51,911 nucleotides of DNA. It comes from Flavobacteriales bacterium (GTDB lineage: Bacteria; Bacteroidota; Bacteroidia; Flavobacteriales_D; Sanyastnellaceae). Shown piece by piece: positions 6,923 to 48,626 of the stretch. A program made the translations under genes and the position numbers. The stretch covers positions 1-51,911 of the forward strand of contig JAIXWX010000030.1 of the NCBI GenBank assembly GCA_027491075.1, given 5' to 3'. The notes beneath the pieces were generated by a model. That model had not been told where the DNA came from and searched no databases. It saw only the letters and a list, made by a program, of their open reading frames with translations. Numbering within the stretch: position 1 is the stretch's first letter; each line of letters begins with the position of its first letter.

Positions 6923-6950
6923 CAAATATGCAGCGAAATTGTTTTACAAA
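6923..6950 (-). promoter_or_regulatory. putative birA promoter, near-leaderless
   Basis: Minus strand TTTG (6950-6947), 16 bases, CATATTTG (6930-6923; one mismatch to TAnnTTTG), then five bases and the ATG at 6917. This leaves almost no 5' leader and supports the chosen start. Confidence 0.4.
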
Positions 6951-15600: not shown

Positions 15601-15663
15601 ATGCGAAAGCTATCGGGTTCAGATAAGACAACAGATGAAAAAGCTTCTGTTGCTACTGCCTAA
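12604..15663 (+). CDS. secDF: protein translocase subunit SecDF (fused)
   Basis: Proton-driven accessory of the Sec translocon that pulls exported proteins into the periplasm. 1019 residues with SecD and SecF in one chain, as is usual in Bacteroidota. SecD part: N-terminal membrane segment (residues 8-26), LGLDLKGGMSVTLEV, the periplasmic NIIRKRIDQFGV and a five-segment membrane block with TLPGIAGIVLTMGMAVDANV. SecF part: a segment starting near residue 710, FNLGVDFIGGTSYKVEF, and a second membrane block with AILTIIGYSINDTVVIFDRI. The periplasmic P1 head (roughly residues 230-400) carries Bacteroidota-type insertions. Monocistronic, between two terminators. Confidence 0.96.
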   Translation: MQNRSFTWIFVILLTLAVAYQLSFGWVARSFEKKAHQWAVDSIAQTELQGASADSAIFALEKKILRDSSEAKAYPLLGHSYSYLKQNELALGLDLKGGMSVTLEVSIPDMIIALSDYNQNPTFIKAIADAKEAQKSSSDDYISLFEKAWNNQNSGIELWRIFNNLETQDKFPAKMSDSDVIKTLRQEAEIAINNTENIIRKRIDQFGVTQPNVQKQSLTGRILVELPGIDDRERVRKNLKSTANLEFWDTYFNTETFGSLSVANEKLGKRLAPQFFSTDSLRAEKDSLMMAALKDTTLTPVQQDSIRNYYADNTVKPDSLLSREELRKKNPLFALINPNMPTGSNMVGIAAVSDTAAINRLLSMKEARESLPQDLRLLWGAKTDQNAATLYAIKDVSQRGKAPIDGKSIVDARQDFDPITGEVTVEMRMDSETGTPIWREMTKKNAADRNRPIAIVMDNLVYSAPAVNSEIPNGSSVITFGKGETREKSIQEAKDLAGLLKAGSLPAPAKIIDEVTVGPSLGEKNIKAGLMSFIIAFVVILLYMIFYYAWAGWAANVALIANLFFLIGALVSLHGALTLPGIAGIVLTMGMAVDANVLIYERVKEELRSGKNINAAMKDGFLKAISAIIDGNATTLITGIVLFMVGSGPIKGFATTLIIGIFTTLFTAIIISRLILYRRLDKKKPITFYSNITKNWFTKINYDFVGKRKIYYAVSIVIVAAGITSWVTRGFNLGVDFIGGTSYKVEFVENVDADAIRGALESALINDNGSKASASVQSIGTSGKEYKVTTNYLIDSTDPNADELVTAKVKDALSSVSKDFNMDSSYKVDATMSDDFRREATWAGIIALVLVGIYIFIRFQKWDFALGASVALFHDALVVIAAFTLLNGVLPFSLEVNQNFIGAILTIIGYSINDTVVIFDRIREYLRSNRGEKLDITINKALNSTLGRSINTSMTVLLTLVVMFIFGSDDIKGFCFAMIVGVVSGVYSTLFIATPIVVDMRKLSGSDKTTDEKASVATA

Positions 15664-15683
15664 GCTTGGATAATAAATGACTT

Positions 15684-15713
15684 AATCCCGGAACTCGTTC
15701 CGGGATTTTTTTT
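15684..15713 (+). terminator. terminator after secDF
   Basis: AATCCCGGAA, loop CTCG, TTCCGGGATT followed by a run of T: a perfect 10-bp stem, the best hairpin in this part of the window. It ends only five bases before the -7 box of the tatA-like gene. Confidence 0.92.
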
Positions 15714-15717
15714 GAAC

Positions 15718-15725
15718 TACTTTTG
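15718..15725 (+). promoter_or_regulatory. -7 box of tatA-like gene; predicts leaderless mRNA
   Basis: TACTTTTG matches TAnnTTTG perfectly and is followed by TCTC and the ATG at 15730. With the start point normally a few bases after this box, the transcript would begin at or next to the start codon. It also rules out a TTG start at 15712. Confidence 0.55.
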
Positions 15726-15729
15726 TCTC

Positions 15730-16053
15730 ATGTCAGCCAGTGAAATCATTCTCATTTTGTTTGTATACCTTATGCTTTTTGGGGCAAAGGGTGTACCTGC
15801 TTTGGCGCAAACGTTGGGAAAAGCAGTATATCAATTCAGAAATGCCGCGAAAGATGTGCAGAATGAGATCATGTCTGGCGCCAATGAAATAAAAAAACAA
15901 ACCGAGGTTCGGCTCGATCAATTCGATGTGATGGCAGATGAAGATCACAATTACAACCAGAATGTTTCTATTCCCAGAAACAAACCAGTAACTCCTAAGG
16001 AAGAAAGTACTTCTCCAAGCCCCAAAAATGAAGAGAGTAGTGATCCACAGTAA
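15730..16053 (+). CDS. TatA/TatB-like twin-arginine translocase subunit
   Basis: 107 residues: one N-terminal hydrophobic segment (SASEIILILFVYLMLFGAKG), the hinge GVPALAQTLGKAVYQFRNAAKDV forming an amphipathic helix, then a charged Pro/Ser-rich tail. This is the TatA/B (MttA/Hcf106) plan. The FGAKGVPALA hinge resembles the TatA FGPKKLPELA consensus, but A and B types cannot be told apart here. No tatC is nearby in the window. The gene starts within five bases of its -7 box, and its last 26 bases overlap the alkB-like gene. Confidence 0.85.
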   Translation: MSASEIILILFVYLMLFGAKGVPALAQTLGKAVYQFRNAAKDVQNEIMSGANEIKKQTEVRLDQFDVMADEDHNYNQNVSIPRNKPVTPKEESTSPSPKNEESSDPQ

Positions 16054-18955: not shown

Positions 18956-18963
18956 TTTATTTG
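18956..18963 (+). promoter_or_regulatory. putative -7 box of psuG, near-leaderless
   Basis: TTTATTTG (one mismatch to TAnnTTTG), then TGCC and the ATG at 18968: the same four-base spacing as at tatA, the E1 gene and aroB. Confidence 0.4.
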
Positions 18964-18967
18964 TGCC

Positions 18968-19900
18968 ATGAGGAAGGACTTAATTATTGTTCACGAAGAA
19001 GTGCTCGATGCGTTAAACGAAGGTAAACCTGTGGTTGCATTGGAGTCTACAATCATAAGTCATGGTATGCCGTACCCGGAAAACTTAAATACAGCTACTC
19101 AAGTGGAAGTAGCCGTTAGGAACCATGGCGCAGTACCATCAACGATTGCTGTTATCCGGGGAAAAATACATGTAGGATTGGATGCTAATTCATTGAGCGA
19201 ATTGGCTCAATCAAAAGACGTTATGAAATTGTCACGCCGCGATCTGCCTTTTGCCATTAGTGAAAAAAGAAACGGAGCGACCACTGTTGCAGCCACGATG
19301 ATTTGTTCAGAAATGGTGGGAATAAACGTTTTTGCAACTGGAGGAATAGGAGGGGTACATAGAGGAGCTGATCAGAACTTTGATATAAGTGCCGACCTGT
19401 TTGAGTTGGCCAAAACATCCATTGCAGTTGTATCGGCCGGTGCAAAGGCCATTCTCGATTTGCCAGCTACATTAGAGTATTTGGAAACTTTAGGAGTTCC
19501 CGTTCTTGGTTATAAAAGTGATTTTTTTGCAGCGTTTTACACCCGATCATCAGGTCTGCCCTTGGAGATGGTAATGCAAGATCCACAAGCAGTAGCGCGT
19601 TTTCTTCACGCCAAATGGTCGATGCATCTTCATGGGGGAGTACTAATAAGTAATCCTGTGAGCGAGGGGAATGCAATGGATCAAAAGGAAATGGAGACCG
19701 CCATAGAAATGGCATTGGAAGAGGCAAAGAACTTGGGTGTAAAAGGAAAAGAAATTACCCCATTTCTTTTGAGAAAGATCAAGGATGTGACGAAAGGAAG
19801 AAGCCTAGAGACAAATATATCTTTGATTTTAAGCAACGCCGCTTTAGCGGCGCAAATAGCTCGGGCTTATCGAGATATTTCTCAACAAGAACGACCATAG
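18968..19900 (+). CDS. psuG: pseudouridine-5'-phosphate glycosidase
   Basis: 310 residues, normal for PsuG. It splits pseudouridine 5'-phosphate into ribose 5-phosphate and uracil, in salvage of modified nucleosides from RNA. Family signatures: VALESTIISHGMPYPENL, VVSAGAKAILDLPATLEYLE, GYKSDFFAAFYTRSSGL and the C-terminal GKEITPFLLRKI. The kinase partner PsuK, often adjacent or fused, is not here. The E1 gene starts 30 bases later with its own -7 box. Confidence 0.93.
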   Translation: MRKDLIIVHEEVLDALNEGKPVVALESTIISHGMPYPENLNTATQVEVAVRNHGAVPSTIAVIRGKIHVGLDANSLSELAQSKDVMKLSRRDLPFAISEKRNGATTVAATMICSEMVGINVFATGGIGGVHRGADQNFDISADLFELAKTSIAVVSAGAKAILDLPATLEYLETLGVPVLGYKSDFFAAFYTRSSGLPLEMVMQDPQAVARFLHAKWSMHLHGGVLISNPVSEGNAMDQKEMETAIEMALEEAKNLGVKGKEITPFLLRKIKDVTKGRSLETNISLILSNAALAAQIARAYRDISQQERP

Positions 19901-19918: not shown

Positions 19919-19926
19919 TATCTTTG
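19919..19926 (+). promoter_or_regulatory. -7 box of the E1 gene; predicts leaderless mRNA
   Basis: TATCTTTG, a perfect TAnnTTTG, followed by TTGC and the ATG at 19931. It sits between the psuG stop and the E1 start, so the E1 gene need not depend on psuG transcription. Confidence 0.5.
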
Positions 19927-19930
19927 TTGC

Positions 19931-22345
19931 ATGGCAAAAGCGTTTGAAACCCCAGATCATATTTTAACAGAAGAGAAAATCAAACAACGCATGTTGGATG
20001 ATTATAAACTCGCATGCATTAGCCGAGAAGCTTCCTTGTTGGGAAGAAAAGAAGTTCTCACTGGTAAGGCGAAGTTTGGAATTTTTGGTGATGGAAAGGA
20101 ACTGGCTCAAATCGCTATGGCCAGACAGTTCAGAAATGGAGACTGGAGAGCGGGATACTATCGAGACCAAACTTTTATGATGGCTATCGATGAGCTAACA
20201 GTGCAACAATACTTTGCGGCGTTGTATGCCCATACAGATGTGGATCAGGAACCCGCATCGGGTGGTCGACAAATGGGAGGACACTATGCCACCAGATTTC
20301 TAAAAGAGGATGGAACATTTAAGAATGTTTCTGAACTAAAGAATTCTTCTGCAGATATTTCTCCTACAGCGGGTCAGATGCCTAGACTTTTGGGTCTGGC
20401 ACAAGCTTCGAAAATGTACAGACAATTACCAGATCTGCATTCATGGACTGGGTTTTCAAATAAAGGAAATGAAGTAGCATTCGGTACTATCGGCGATAGC
20501 AGTACTTCTGAAGGATTGTTTTGGGAAACGATGAATGCTGCTGCTGTATTAGGAGTGCCACTATGTATGAGTGTTTGGGACAATGGATGGGGAATTTCTG
20601 TTCCAAAGAAATATCAAACCGTTAAAGAGAGTATTTCTGAAGCTTTAAGAGGTTTTGAAAAAACAACGACCACGAATGGCATACAAATTTTTAAAGCCAA
20701 AGGATGGAACTACCCAGAACTTCTAATTACGTATGAAAAAGCGGTCGCGTTCTCAAGAGAAAATCACATTCCAACGCTAGTTCATGTGGAAGAGCTCACC
20801 CAGCCTCAAGGACACAGCACTTCCGGTTCTCACGAAAGATACAAAGACAAGGCATTGTTAGCTTGGTATGAAGAATACGATTGCTTGGTTCAATTCAAGA
20901 AGTTCATAGCAACAGACGGCGCAGCGTCTGAAAAAGAGCTTGATAATATCAGAGAAGAAGCAAAGCAATTTGTAAGACAAGAGCAAAAAAAGGCATGGGC
21001 AGCTTTTCGTGAGGATATCGAAGAGGATAAGCGTGCTTCTTTGGAATTATTGAAAAACCTTGCTAGCGCCTCTCAAAATAGTGACGTAGCATCCATCACT
21101 GAAGAGCTAAGTAAAACGAATGAAGCCATTCGAAAAGACATTATTGGCGCTGTAAAACGTGCATTACGAACTACAAGAAAAGATAATTCTCAGGAAAGAA
21201 ATACTCTTCTTAACTGGTTAGAGAATTCCATGAGGGATTGCGAGCGCAGATATAGTTCGTTTTTATACAGCGAATCTGCTCAAAGCACGAGTCATGTTAA
21301 AGTGGTCGATCCTACTTTCAACCCCGATGCTGAATGGGTAGATGGTAGAATTATCCTTCGCGATTTTTGGGATATGACTATGGCGAAGAGACCAGAGGTT
21401 CTCATTTTCGGAGAAGATGTTGGCAAAATTGGGGGAGTAAATCAAACCTGTGAAGGATTGCAGGAAAAGTATGGCGATTTACGGGTAGCAGACAGCGGAA
21501 TTCGCGAGGCTACAATTCTAGGACAGGGTATAGGAATGGCGATGCGAGGATTGCGTCCTGTGGCAGAGATTCAATACTTGGATTATATTTTCTACGCACT
21601 TCAAATCATGCGAGATGATTTGGCTTGCATTCAATACCGAACCAAAGGAGGTCAGAAATCCCCATTGATTATCAGCACTCGAGGCCATCGATTGGAAGGC
21701 ATTTGGCATTCAGGAAGTCCCATGGGAGCTATTATTCATAGTGTACGAGGAATGATTGTCTGTGTGCCTAGAAACATGATGCAAGCCGCTGGAATGTACA
21801 ATACCCTTCTGCAATCCGATGAACCTGCTATTGTTGTAGAATGTCTAAACGGATATCGCACGAAGGAAGCAAAACCTACCAACCTCGGAGAATATACGAT
21901 CCCGCTGGGAGTTCCCGAAGTAGTAAAAGAAGGGAAAGACATTACTATTGTGAGCTATGGTTCGACGTTCAATCTTTGCTCACAAGCAGCAATTCAGTTA
22001 GAGAATGAAGGTATATCCGTTGAGTTAGTGGATGTAAGAACACTTCTACCCTTCGATACACAAGGTGTTTGTGCGAAAAGCGTTGCGAAAACAGGACGTC
22101 TACTGATAGTAGATGAAGATGTTCCAGGGGGAGCTTCGGCTTTTATTCTCGATGAAATAATAAATAAACAAGGAGGCTATTTTTCTTTGGATAGTCAGCC
22201 AGTAACCCTTACTGCCAAGCCGCATCTGCCCGCTTACGGTACAGATGGGGATTACTTCAGTAAGCCTTCTATTGAAGATATTTTCGATGCAGCGTACTCC
22301 ATTATGAGCGAGGCTCTACCGACTGATTTTCCTCCTATTTATTAA
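19931..22345 (+). CDS. 2-oxoacid dehydrogenase E1, fused alpha and beta subunits
   Basis: 804-residue thiamine-diphosphate enzyme joining E1 alpha (about 1-370) and E1 beta (about 470-804) by a charged linker, a form common in Bacteroidota. The alpha part has the thiamine motif TIGDSSTSEGLFWETMNAAA ending in DNGWGIS; the beta part has LIFGEDVGKIGGVNQTCEG, VADSGIREATILGQGIG, EIQYLDYIFYALQ and the C-terminal transketolase fold (ITIVSYGSTFNLC, VDVRTLLPFD). It decarboxylates a 2-oxoacid and passes the acyl group to a lipoyl E2. Branched-chain 2-oxoacids are the most likely substrate, but pyruvate or 2-oxoglutarate cannot be excluded. E2 and E3 genes are not adjacent. Confidence 0.9.
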   Translation: MAKAFETPDHILTEEKIKQRMLDDYKLACISREASLLGRKEVLTGKAKFGIFGDGKELAQIAMARQFRNGDWRAGYYRDQTFMMAIDELTVQQYFAALYAHTDVDQEPASGGRQMGGHYATRFLKEDGTFKNVSELKNSSADISPTAGQMPRLLGLAQASKMYRQLPDLHSWTGFSNKGNEVAFGTIGDSSTSEGLFWETMNAAAVLGVPLCMSVWDNGWGISVPKKYQTVKESISEALRGFEKTTTTNGIQIFKAKGWNYPELLITYEKAVAFSRENHIPTLVHVEELTQPQGHSTSGSHERYKDKALLAWYEEYDCLVQFKKFIATDGAASEKELDNIREEAKQFVRQEQKKAWAAFREDIEEDKRASLELLKNLASASQNSDVASITEELSKTNEAIRKDIIGAVKRALRTTRKDNSQERNTLLNWLENSMRDCERRYSSFLYSESAQSTSHVKVVDPTFNPDAEWVDGRIILRDFWDMTMAKRPEVLIFGEDVGKIGGVNQTCEGLQEKYGDLRVADSGIREATILGQGIGMAMRGLRPVAEIQYLDYIFYALQIMRDDLACIQYRTKGGQKSPLIISTRGHRLEGIWHSGSPMGAIIHSVRGMIVCVPRNMMQAAGMYNTLLQSDEPAIVVECLNGYRTKEAKPTNLGEYTIPLGVPEVVKEGKDITIVSYGSTFNLCSQAAIQLENEGISVELVDVRTLLPFDTQGVCAKSVAKTGRLLIVDEDVPGGASAFILDEIINKQGGYFSLDSQPVTLTAKPHLPAYGTDGDYFSKPSIEDIFDAAYSIMSEALPTDFPPIY

Positions 22346-46734: not shown

Positions 46735-47478
46735 ATGAAAACAATAGATGTAAAAACAACTCAGAATGTAGTAATTACTTATGAGCTGGCGTCTTTCAAA
46801 GAACGGTTTTTTGCTTGGTTCATTGATAGCTTAATCAAATCGATAGCCGTTTCTATTTTTGTGTTTCTTGCCTTTGTAGTGTTTGAAATCGATATAGAAG
46901 AAGTCTTAATTGTTTACATGATTTGTACGGTGTTCGTAACTGTCACATTCTATTCTTTATTGTTTGAGGCGCTATGGCATGGGCAAACTCCTGGTAAGGC
47001 GATCTTGGGCATTAAAGTGATGAAAGTGAATGGGAGGCAAACCGTGTTTTACGACCATCTGGTGCGTTGGATTTTTCGAATCTTGGATATTTATTTGTCA
47101 GCGGGTATATTTGGTTCGATTGTCCTGTTGAGCAATACCCGAAATCAGAGATTGGGTGATTTACTTTCTAACACTTGCGTGATCAAGCTCTCTAAGAAGA
47201 ACACATCCGTTACATTAAAGCAACTTTTAGAGTTGGACTCAAGAATTAGCTACGAACCAGTTTATTTGCAAATCAAGAATTTTAGAGAAGAAGATATAGT
47301 TTTGATAAAGCAGACCTTGGACAGATATCAGCGTTTTAGAAATCAAGGTCATAAAGAGGCGTTGCATGAATTAGCCGATAAGATGGCAGATAGATTGAAT
47401 TTAGGGAAGGAAGAAACTAATAATCCCACTAATTTTTTAAAGACGCTGATTCGGGATTATGTGGTACTCACACGCTGA
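46735..47478 (+). CDS. RDD-family membrane protein
   Basis: 247 residues. RDD domain with its Arg and Asp landmarks: ASFKERFFAWFIDSLIKSIA, three or four membrane segments, HGQTPGKAILGIKVMK, DHLVRWIFRILDIY and NQRLGDLLSNTCVI, followed by a soluble C-terminal helical part. It is divergent from the SpoIIM-like gene with a 49-base gap, the typical position of RDD genes beside the MoxR cluster. It overlaps aroB convergently by 11 bases. Function unknown. Confidence 0.88.
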   Translation: MKTIDVKTTQNVVITYELASFKERFFAWFIDSLIKSIAVSIFVFLAFVVFEIDIEEVLIVYMICTVFVTVTFYSLLFEALWHGQTPGKAILGIKVMKVNGRQTVFYDHLVRWIFRILDIYLSAGIFGSIVLLSNTRNQRLGDLLSNTCVIKLSKKNTSVTLKQLLELDSRISYEPVYLQIKNFREEDIVLIKQTLDRYQRFRNQGHKEALHELADKMADRLNLGKEETNNPTNFLKTLIRDYVVLTR

Positions 47479-48511
47479 GCTCTTCTTCCCAGGCACTTCT
47501 TAGATCTTCCTCCGTAACAGCAATATCCCACGCACATGTCCCAAGTGATGCAGGGATGGCAATGAGAATTTGTTTCCCGTTATTTTTTTTGTCTTGTATA
47601 AGATACTTCACCAGATCTTCCCAGTAAATTTTTCGTGGAAGCGGGAAGGGGAGTTGGATAAGCTGTCTAATTCGCATCAACTGATCTATAGGCAAGTGGC
47701 CTTTGAGGTAAGCTACGTAAGCCTCTACCCGCATCCCCAGAGCAACGGCATGACCATGCGAAATGGGAGTTTCATTTTCTAGAAAATAACTTTCTACCGC
47801 ATGTCCTATGGTATGACCAAAATTCAGAATTTTACGAAGTCCTTTTTCCAAGTAATCTTTCTCAACAATTTCCTGTTTTATCTGCGCACTTCTTTCGATG
47901 AAAAGCGATACATGATCTGCATCGGTGGGTTCGATGGTTTCTAAGGCCTCAAACAAGCGGGAGTCTGCTATGATGGCATGCTTCACCATTTCAGCATAAC
48001 CGCTTAGTAACTCTTCTTTAGGTAAACTCGAAATGAACGGGGGGTAAACAATAACTGCTTTCGGCTGAGCAAATGATCCTATTACGTTTTTATAGTGGAG
48101 AAAGTCTATTCCTGTTTTTCCACCTATTGATGCATCACACATGCCCATAAGTGAAGTCGGGATATTGACAAAGGAAATTCCTCTTTTGTATATGGATGCA
48201 ATGAAACCTCCAAGGTCGCTCACTACCCCTCCGCCGAAGTTGATCAAAAGCGCTTTTCTGTCTACTTCCGATTCCAAGAGCTGTTCAATAATTTGAAGGG
48301 CGATTTCAGGTGCTTTAGATTGTTCTCCTGGTTCTATTTCAAGAATTTCTATTTCTGAGGGCTTTTCAAAGATTGGAAGAAGAATATCCAGGCATTGCTC
48401 CGCGACATTGGAGTCTGTAAGAAGAAAAATTTTGGAATACCCGCTTGTTACAAGCTGCATATCTTTCCTTAGGCTGTCTATTGAATAGTGAAATCTCAAA
48501 ATCCCGGTCAT
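47468..48511 (-). CDS. aroB: 3-dehydroquinate synthase
   Basis: Second enzyme of the shikimate pathway, converting DAHP to 3-dehydroquinate with NAD and a divalent metal. 347 residues from MTGILRFHYSI. Landmarks: NFGGGVVSDLGGFIASIYKR, IPTSLMGMCDASIGGKTG, GYAEMVKHAII and ILNFGHTIGHAVES with metal-binding His. The frame continues to 48583, but that would read into the tRNA-Phe gene and its terminator. The ATG at 48511 lies four bases after a perfect -7 box, which fixes the start and predicts a leaderless message. Confidence 0.94.
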   Translation of the reverse strand: MTGILRFHYSIDSLRKDMQLVTSGYSKIFLLTDSNVAEQCLDILLPIFEKPSEIEILEIEPGEQSKAPEIALQIIEQLLESEVDRKALLINFGGGVVSDLGGFIASIYKRGISFVNIPTSLMGMCDASIGGKTGIDFLHYKNVIGSFAQPKAVIVYPPFISSLPKEELLSGYAEMVKHAIIADSRLFEALETIEPTDADHVSLFIERSAQIKQEIVEKDYLEKGLRKILNFGHTIGHAVESYFLENETPISHGHAVALGMRVEAYVAYLKGHLPIDQLMRIRQLIQLPFPLPRKIYWEDLVKYLIQDKKNNGKQILIAIPASLGTCAWDIAVTEEDLRSAWEEELSV

Positions 48512-48515
48512 CGGG

Positions 48516-48523
48516 CAAATGTA
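48516..48523 (-). promoter_or_regulatory. -7 box of aroB; predicts leaderless mRNA
   Basis: Minus-strand TACATTTG, a perfect TAnnTTTG, then CCCG and the ATG at 48511. Any -33 element would lie in the tRNA terminator hairpin. Confidence 0.55.
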
Positions 48524-48525
48524 AA

Positions 48526-48550
48526 ATAAAAAAGCCCCTTGAAGGGGCTT
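48526..48550 (-). terminator. terminator of tRNA-Phe
   Basis: Minus strand AAGCCCCT, a 3-base loop, AGGGGCTT and a run of T: 8-bp perfect stem beginning a few bases after the tRNA 3' end. Confidence 0.88.
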
Positions 48551-48553
48551 GGG

Positions 48554-48626
48554 TGGTGCCAGCTGGAATCGAACCAGCGACACAAGGATTTTCAGTCCTT
48601 TGCTCTACCAACTGAGCTATGGCACC
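48554..48626 (-). tRNA. tRNA-Phe (GAA)
   Basis: 73 bases fold into a full cloverleaf: acceptor GGTGCCA/TGGCACC, D-arm GCTC-AGTTGGTA-GAGC, anticodon arm AAGGA-CTGAAAA-TCCTT with anticodon GAA, T-arm GCTGG-TTCGATT-CCAGC and discriminator A. CCA is not encoded (the next bases are CCC). Its own terminator follows, and a -7 box precedes it. Confidence 0.97.

Follow-up and report, generated by a model that had tools for sequence, protein, structure and literature searches.

A four-base spacing between the -7 box and the start codon points to a probable class of leaderless mRNAs in a family of Flavobacteriales

Bacteroidota lack Shine-Dalgarno sequences. Where transcription start sites (TSSs) have been mapped or predicted in members of the phylum, leaderless messages are a minority in the excerpts cited here (PMC6847099, PMC9723704, PMC7366714). 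TSS mapping in Flavobacterium psychrophilum, covering 890 coding sequences, gave 5.5% of mRNAs as leaderless (PMC9723704), 87% of the predicted leaders in Flavobacterium johnsoniae exceed 10 nt (PMC6847099), and about 3.7% of the 5′ untranslated regions (UTRs) of Bacteroides thetaiotaomicron are shorter than 10 nt (PMC7366714). Of 37 Bacteroidetes/Chlorobi genomes, one survey flagged a single one, with a value of 2.4% of genes (PMC3160421), and StartLink describes noncanonical AT-rich sites in FCB genomes (PMC9581028). The box TAnnTTTG matches the sigma motif at start sites of two Flavobacterium species (PMC6847099, PMC9723704). In F. johnsoniae, 241 of 434 candidate -7 elements have a TSS, as predicted by RNA-seq, at a distance of 4 or 5 nt (PMC6847099), which documents for that species the premise, taken up in an earlier note on the DNA analyzed here, that transcription starts a few bases past the box.

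The window (a 51,911-nucleotide stretch of a Flavobacteriales genome, contig JAIXWX010000030.1) was said in that note to carry three perfect TAnnTTTG-N4-ATG sites, at a tatA-like gene (15718), a gene for an E1-like protein (19919) and aroB (48523, minus strand), and all three are present. Their constant spacing had been called hard to explain by chance. Shuffled versions of the window had a mean of 0.88 matches, and 7 of 100 reached three; taken alone, the three matches in the window are weak evidence and could be due to chance. Across the surrounding genome (3,021,296 bases in 34 contigs) we found 115 matches (60 + 55) versus 31 (17 + 14) for a control in which the pattern was reversed, so that the argument holds genome-wide, although it is weak within the window.

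A sharp peak at four bases had been proposed as the check on such a class. We measured the gap between box and start codon in 851,911 of the genome's 3021 kb (800 kb in stretches plus the window), counting perfect boxes before in-frame ATGs in the start region of 623 nonoverlapping open reading frames (ORFs) of at least 100 amino acids. Gaps of 0 to 8 bases accounted for 0, 0, 1, 2, 26, 8, 5, 3, and 6 cases, respectively, and the peak was as sharp as expected, with 26 of the 623 ORFs at gap 4 compared with 2 and 8 at gaps 3 and 5, respectively. A second, broad rise lay at gaps of about 15 to 24 in the same 852 kb. Boxes with one mismatch likewise peaked at gap 4 (30, versus a mean of 10.6 far from it). 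The gap-4 ATG was the first ATG of its ORF in 24 of the 26 cases. Internal ATGs, taken from the last 60% of the same ORFs, had a box at gap 4 in 0 of 3403 cases; the same control gave 1 of 1777 in G018, a family genome from another genus, and 0 of 1025 in the complete Flavobacterium genome G132. Among other codons at gap 4 this genome has one GTG, no TTG, and no CTG, so GTG use is seen mainly at the tatA genes of its relatives. In 49 family genomes, of genera g1 to g16, the pattern at gap 4 occurred 4263 times versus 1382 for the control, and at gap 20 it occurred 1654 times versus 1393. Chance is ruled out as the cause by the genome-wide counts and the gap histogram, and composition is ruled out by the reversed-pattern control, the gap-20 pattern, and the internal ATGs.

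The tatA-like gene (15730 to 16053, plus strand) starts with the ATG at 15730, four bases past the -7 box TACTTTTG (15718 to 15725, plus strand). Residues 1 to 46 of its product align with positions 2 to 47 of TIGR01411 (E value of 7e-13; 47.9 bits, below the cut-off of 53.9). The ORF of the upstream gene ends at 15663 and is followed by an intrinsic terminator, a hairpin with a T-run (15684 to 15713, plus strand), whose fold over 15680 to 15714 has an energy of −14.5 kcal/mol (z score of −4.14; 0 of 200 shuffles as good). The box lies four bases from the T-run of this strong hairpin, and the start codon of the longest ORF, TTG 15712, is implausible because it falls at the end of that T-run. 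A match to the protein was found in 108 of 114 family genomes, and among the best 30 loci the box-to-start gap was 4 in 25 (17 with ATG and 8 with GTG), 6 in 2, 7 in 2, and 9 in 1, which bears out the start codon that the four-base rule assigns to tatA. The GTG starts, each exactly four bases past the box, are those of loci L224, L225, L231, L232, L233, L235, L236, and L238, and this arrangement suggests leaderless GUG starts at tatA in these eight. The same genome has a second short TatA-like match (G000:C33:63797-63916; E value of 2e-5).

On the minus strand, aroB (47468 to 48511; TIGR01357, 338 bits, cut-off of 305) starts at ATG 48511, four bases past the -7 box TACATTTG (48516 to 48523). 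Between this box and the gene for tRNA-Phe (48552 to 48626, minus strand) lies a terminator-like hairpin with a T-run (48524 to 48550, minus strand); the fold of 48524 to 48560 has an energy of −12.9 kcal/mol (z score of −2.19; 6 of 200 shuffles as good). Here too the start given by ORF length is implausible, in line with what had been claimed: GTG 48583, the start of the longest ORF, falls inside the tRNA-Phe gene. We read 30 aroB loci by eye (a match was present in 104 of 114 family genomes): at gap 4, two had TAnnTTTG, one had TAnnTTCG, and four had CATnTTTG, while the others had other gaps, no box, or, in the case of L207, no readable start. The arrangement at aroB is thus only partly conserved.

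Two near matches that had been listed alongside the perfect sites are also present, although they are weaker. The gene named psuG in the earlier note, for which we found no NCBIfam match at an E value of 1e-5, has the degenerate box TTTATTTG (18956 to 18963, plus strand) at gap 4 from ATG 18968, the whole arrangement spanning 18956 to 18970. TTTG-N4-ATG was seen by eye at 5 of 17 homologous loci, including the window's own. The near box CATATTTG of birA (6923 to 6930, minus strand) lies at gap 5 from ATG 6917; BirA matches TIGR00121 at 135.6 bits (cut-off of 83.1).

The E1 gene (19931 to 22345, plus strand), which encodes an E1-like 2-oxoacid dehydrogenase with fused alpha and beta parts, has its ATG four bases past the box TATCTTTG (19919 to 19926, plus strand). 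Its product matches the NCBIfam models for pyruvate dehydrogenase E1 alpha and E1 beta below their cut-offs. The protein has a match in all 114 family genomes. Accepting TAnnTTTG or TAnnTTCG as a box, we found gaps of 4 at 19 of the best 30 loci, 6 at 2 (both in genus g3), 7 at 1, and 24 to 37 at 7, with no recognized box at 1; some genera contribute several near-identical loci to the 30, and these counts thus overstate the number of independent cases. Gap 4 spans genera g1, g3, g6, g8, g9, g11, and g12, and E1 stays leadered in genera g4, g5, g14, and g16. At 75 other loci (80, less L001 to L004 and L007, which duplicate family genomes by their sizes, counts, or coordinates; some of the 75 may belong to the family), the gap was 17 to 29 in 66, 42 in 2, 5 in 1, and 0 in 1, with no box in 3 and 2 unreadable.

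In a 42-row tree of E1 proteins, 23 family loci with a gap of 4 to 7 or a degenerate box formed one branch with support of 100/100. A label restricted to gap 4 needs four changes on this tree, because the gap-6, gap-7, or degenerate-box rows L188, L189, L166, and L170 sit among the gap-4 rows. When gaps of 4 to 7 and degenerate boxes were given a single label and L016 was left out, one branch (100/100) split the 23 short-gap rows from the 18 others with one change; among those others, L009, L014, L017, and L030 have no perfect box and were called leadered because they lack a short-gap box. The tree agrees with a single change from leadered to short-gap, and this direction would be the natural reading of the two states. 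L016, which has the box TATCTTCG at gap 5, sits on a long branch (0.9) in the E1 tree. By eye, L016 and L013, both outside the listed family, have TATCTTCG five bases before the E1 ATG, and the two are possibly independent leaderless conversions at this gene.

The excess extends through the family, most of whose members are uncultured. Over 114 genomes we counted 7857 matches versus 2118 for the control, with a ratio above 1.5 in 112 of the 114; both exceptions belong to genus g2. In a comparison of 24 further records (14 named Flavobacteriaceae, 4 repeats of family members, and 6 others), the 14 Flavobacteriaceae had 1350 matches versus 1173, a ratio of 1.15 that rose to about 1.5 in two Flavobacterium genomes, and the six others (G117, G118, and G120 to G123) had ratios of about 1.3 to 1.9. 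In genus g27, which we infer to be Flavobacterium from one genome whose counts are identical to those of L079, nine genomes had 1177 versus 869. Within this apparent Flavobacterium genus, G290 stands well above its congeners, with 188 versus 89.

The excess was patchy among 198 genomes of the phylum. A few other families had a strong one, many had none, and some fell below the control. Strong cases were G178 (128 versus 33), which belongs to the sister family f2, G251 (80 versus 25), G174 (62 versus 18), and G280 (56 versus 8). The class claimed in the earlier note is thus family-wide here, with a ratio above 1.5 in nearly every member, yet not unique to the family; nor is it general in the phylum, with a ratio of only 1.15 in the 14 named Flavobacteriaceae. 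A general phylum trait is ruled out by the patchiness over the 198 genomes and by the families below the control, and a trait of this family alone is ruled out by the excess in other families of the class (G178, G251, and G174). The distant family f23, with G280 (56 versus 8) and G272 (38 versus 6), is perhaps a separate leaderless-rich lineage. In family f16, the matches fall below the reversed control in most genomes, which might look like avoidance of the arrangement.

We scanned 25 of the 26 gap-4 genes (the other crossed the edge of a sampled stretch), together with psuG and birA, against NCBIfam at E values of 1e-5 or 1e-25. Many have housekeeping functions: dihydrolipoyl dehydrogenase, TyrS, MurF, NadC, MnmA, SurE, and proteins like RibBA, FabK, and the helicase RhlE. 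Seven of the 25 had no NCBIfam match at these thresholds. The N terminus of the family model lay within a few residues of the gap-4 start for six genes (SurE, the RhlE-like helicase, lipoamide dehydrogenase, TyrS, the FabK-like protein, and MnmA). For SurE the gap-4 ATG comes 20 codons into the ORF and aligns with model position 1, so that the four-base rule corrects a start given by ORF length here as well. The NeuB-like and TrmH-like proteins, MurF, and NadC would be about 8 to 17 residues longer than the main model if begun at the gap-4 ATG, and these four are less clear as to the start codon. Together with the conservation at tatA and E1, the agreement at the six genes supports the gap-4 codon as the real start codon.

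Several features of the promoters bear on how such a box might act. The -7 element TAnnTTTG is perfect at tatA, E1, and aroB. F. johnsoniae has the consensus TAHHTTTG, with no G at the two middle positions (PMC6847099); here G occupied those positions in 15% and 15% of 26 gap-4 boxes and in 7% and 11% of 54 leadered boxes, and in 2% and 0% of 47 leadered boxes of the Flavobacterium genome G132. No clear TTG peak marked a -33 TTTG element in 40 gap-4 or 80 leadered promoters, and this element is weak in F. johnsoniae too (PMC6847099). The base before the ATG was a pyrimidine at 34 of 43 gap-4 genes versus 383 of 728 starts lacking a box (P = 8e-4). In leadered promoters of the family, the fifth base past the box was not clearly a purine (41 of 83), so the start site used below is borrowed from Flavobacterium. 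Within the 60 nt upstream, a terminator-like hairpin was present at 4 of 43 boxes of the gap-4 class, at 3 of 83 of the leadered class, at 15 of 797 other starts, and in 2 of 923 shuffled controls. For the 40 of 43 gap-4 genes with a listed upstream neighbor, a same-strand ORF lay less than 40 nt upstream in 10 of 40, versus 305 of 782 others (P = 0.09, not clearly fewer), and an opposite-strand neighbor was present at 19 of 40, versus 40 of 80 leadered genes and 238 of 782 others (P = 0.03 for gap-4 genes versus others).

We give a probability of roughly 0.86 to the reading that the gap-4 box is a sigma -7 element that places the TSS on the A of the start codon and yields a leaderless mRNA. 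TAnnTTTG serves the housekeeping sigma factor of Bacteroidota as its -7 element, and the TSS, often the fifth or sixth base past the box in F. johnsoniae, would fall on that A; by analogy with this spacing, the messages most likely start at AUG. With only four bases between box and ATG, there is no room for a Shine-Dalgarno sequence below the start site, and the ribosome would bind the 5′-terminal AUG, or GUG at tatA of some relatives. At E1, the simplest account is that the gene lost its leader, some 13 to 33 bases long, with no change to the box or the protein start. Transcription might instead begin 1 to 4 bases upstream of the A, leaving very short leaders of 1 to 4 bases. F. johnsoniae is flexible in where transcription starts, often 4 or 5 nt past the box (PMC6847099), gaps 5 to 8 are modestly filled (8, 5, 3, and 6 cases), and gaps of 6, 7, or 9 occur at E1 in two g3 genomes (gap 6) and at tatA in 5 of the best 30 loci, all as short leaders would allow. 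However, the sharp maximum at 4 with few cases at 3 fits a start fixed at the A, as does the pyrimidine before it, and a start 1 to 4 bases upstream would lie nearer the box than the usual 4 to 5 nt; we consider short leaders unlikely.

That the box is a translation signal, or an effect of composition at gene starts, and no promoter at all seems very improbable. It does sit beside the ATG with no visible -33 element, but the same box lies 17 to 29 bases upstream of E1 at 66 of 75 other loci, coincides with the sigma motif at start sites of two Flavobacterium species (PMC6847099, PMC9723704, in the excerpts cited), and comes immediately downstream of a terminator at both tatA and aroB. We give equally little credence to translation from a later ATG behind an ordinary leader. 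Some E1 loci have a second in-frame ATG at codon 21, and the four genes with 8 to 17 residues beyond their main family model could be read in this way. Against this, a further in-frame ATG lies 12 to 30 nt downstream in 3 of 40 gap-4 genes versus 96 of 862 others, and the N-terminal part of E1 aligns from residue 1 at 13 of the best 30 family loci (74 to 100% identity); at six of these loci the first 20 codons contain no further ATG. The model N termini at six genes and the GTG at the same place in eight tatA orthologues also speak for the gap-4 codon.

We estimated the leaderless share of perfect-box promoters with one script for all genomes, taking the excess at gaps of 4 to 6 as leaderless and that at 15 to 39 as leadered, so that gaps of 7 to 14 and longer leaders stand outside the estimate; in this genome, gaps of 40 to 59 showed little excess (38, versus 34 at 60 to 79). 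The share was 0.48 in this genome (bootstrap range of 0.35 to 0.64, from small counts), 0.52 (0.33 to 0.78) in G018, and 0.63 (0.40 to 0.91) in G081, from a third genus and with 55% GC in the sample. In the complete Flavobacterium genome G132 (the same as L051) it was 0.04 (−0.05 to 0.15), in agreement with the 5.5% mapped in F. psychrophilum (PMC9723704). The shares of 0.20 (−0.18 to 0.80) for G178 and 0.22 (0.00 to 0.60) for G280 come from samples that are too small (82,888 and 156,948 bases, respectively). We thus estimate that, among perfect-box promoters whose start lies no more than 39 bases away, about half may be leaderless in three family genomes, and the arrangement looks much commoner in the family than in the one Flavobacterium genome compared.

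A bolder proposal is that a whole Bacteroidota family trimmed its leaders gene by gene, to the point that about half of its housekeeping promoters are leaderless and GTG is tolerated at the 5′ end, with E1 as a case that has a place on the tree. We regard the case for and against this as evenly balanced; if true, such trimming would imply translation machinery adapted to 5′-terminal start codons. A leaderless-rich lineage would allow a natural comparison, within a single class, of what enables ribosomes to use such codons, and orthologous leadered and leaderless promoters, such as those of E1, are directly comparable. The gap-4 rule would also correct start codons in many uncultured genomes.

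Leaderless messages are already known in the phylum, and what appears new, judging from promoter sequences, is a family with seemingly leaderless messages at about half of its perfect-box promoters; our searches of open-access papers turned up no description of a comparable leaderless-rich family in the Bacteroidota. Judged from the excerpts cited, the closest described cases compare as follows. The leaderless mRNAs of F. psychrophilum and F. johnsoniae share with those proposed here the phylum, the TAnnTTTG box, and the logic of box-to-start distance. Unlike in F. psychrophilum, with its 5.5%, short-gap promoters appear about as frequent as leadered ones in the three family genomes. B. thetaiotaomicron shares the phylum-specific sigma factor, but its short 5′ UTRs are few (PMC7366714). 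The leaderless genes of Actinobacteria and Deinococcus-Thermus resemble those here in having a -10-type box about 12 bp upstream of the start codon at many genes, but their box is TAnnnT, unlike the TAnnTTTG of this family (PMC3160421).
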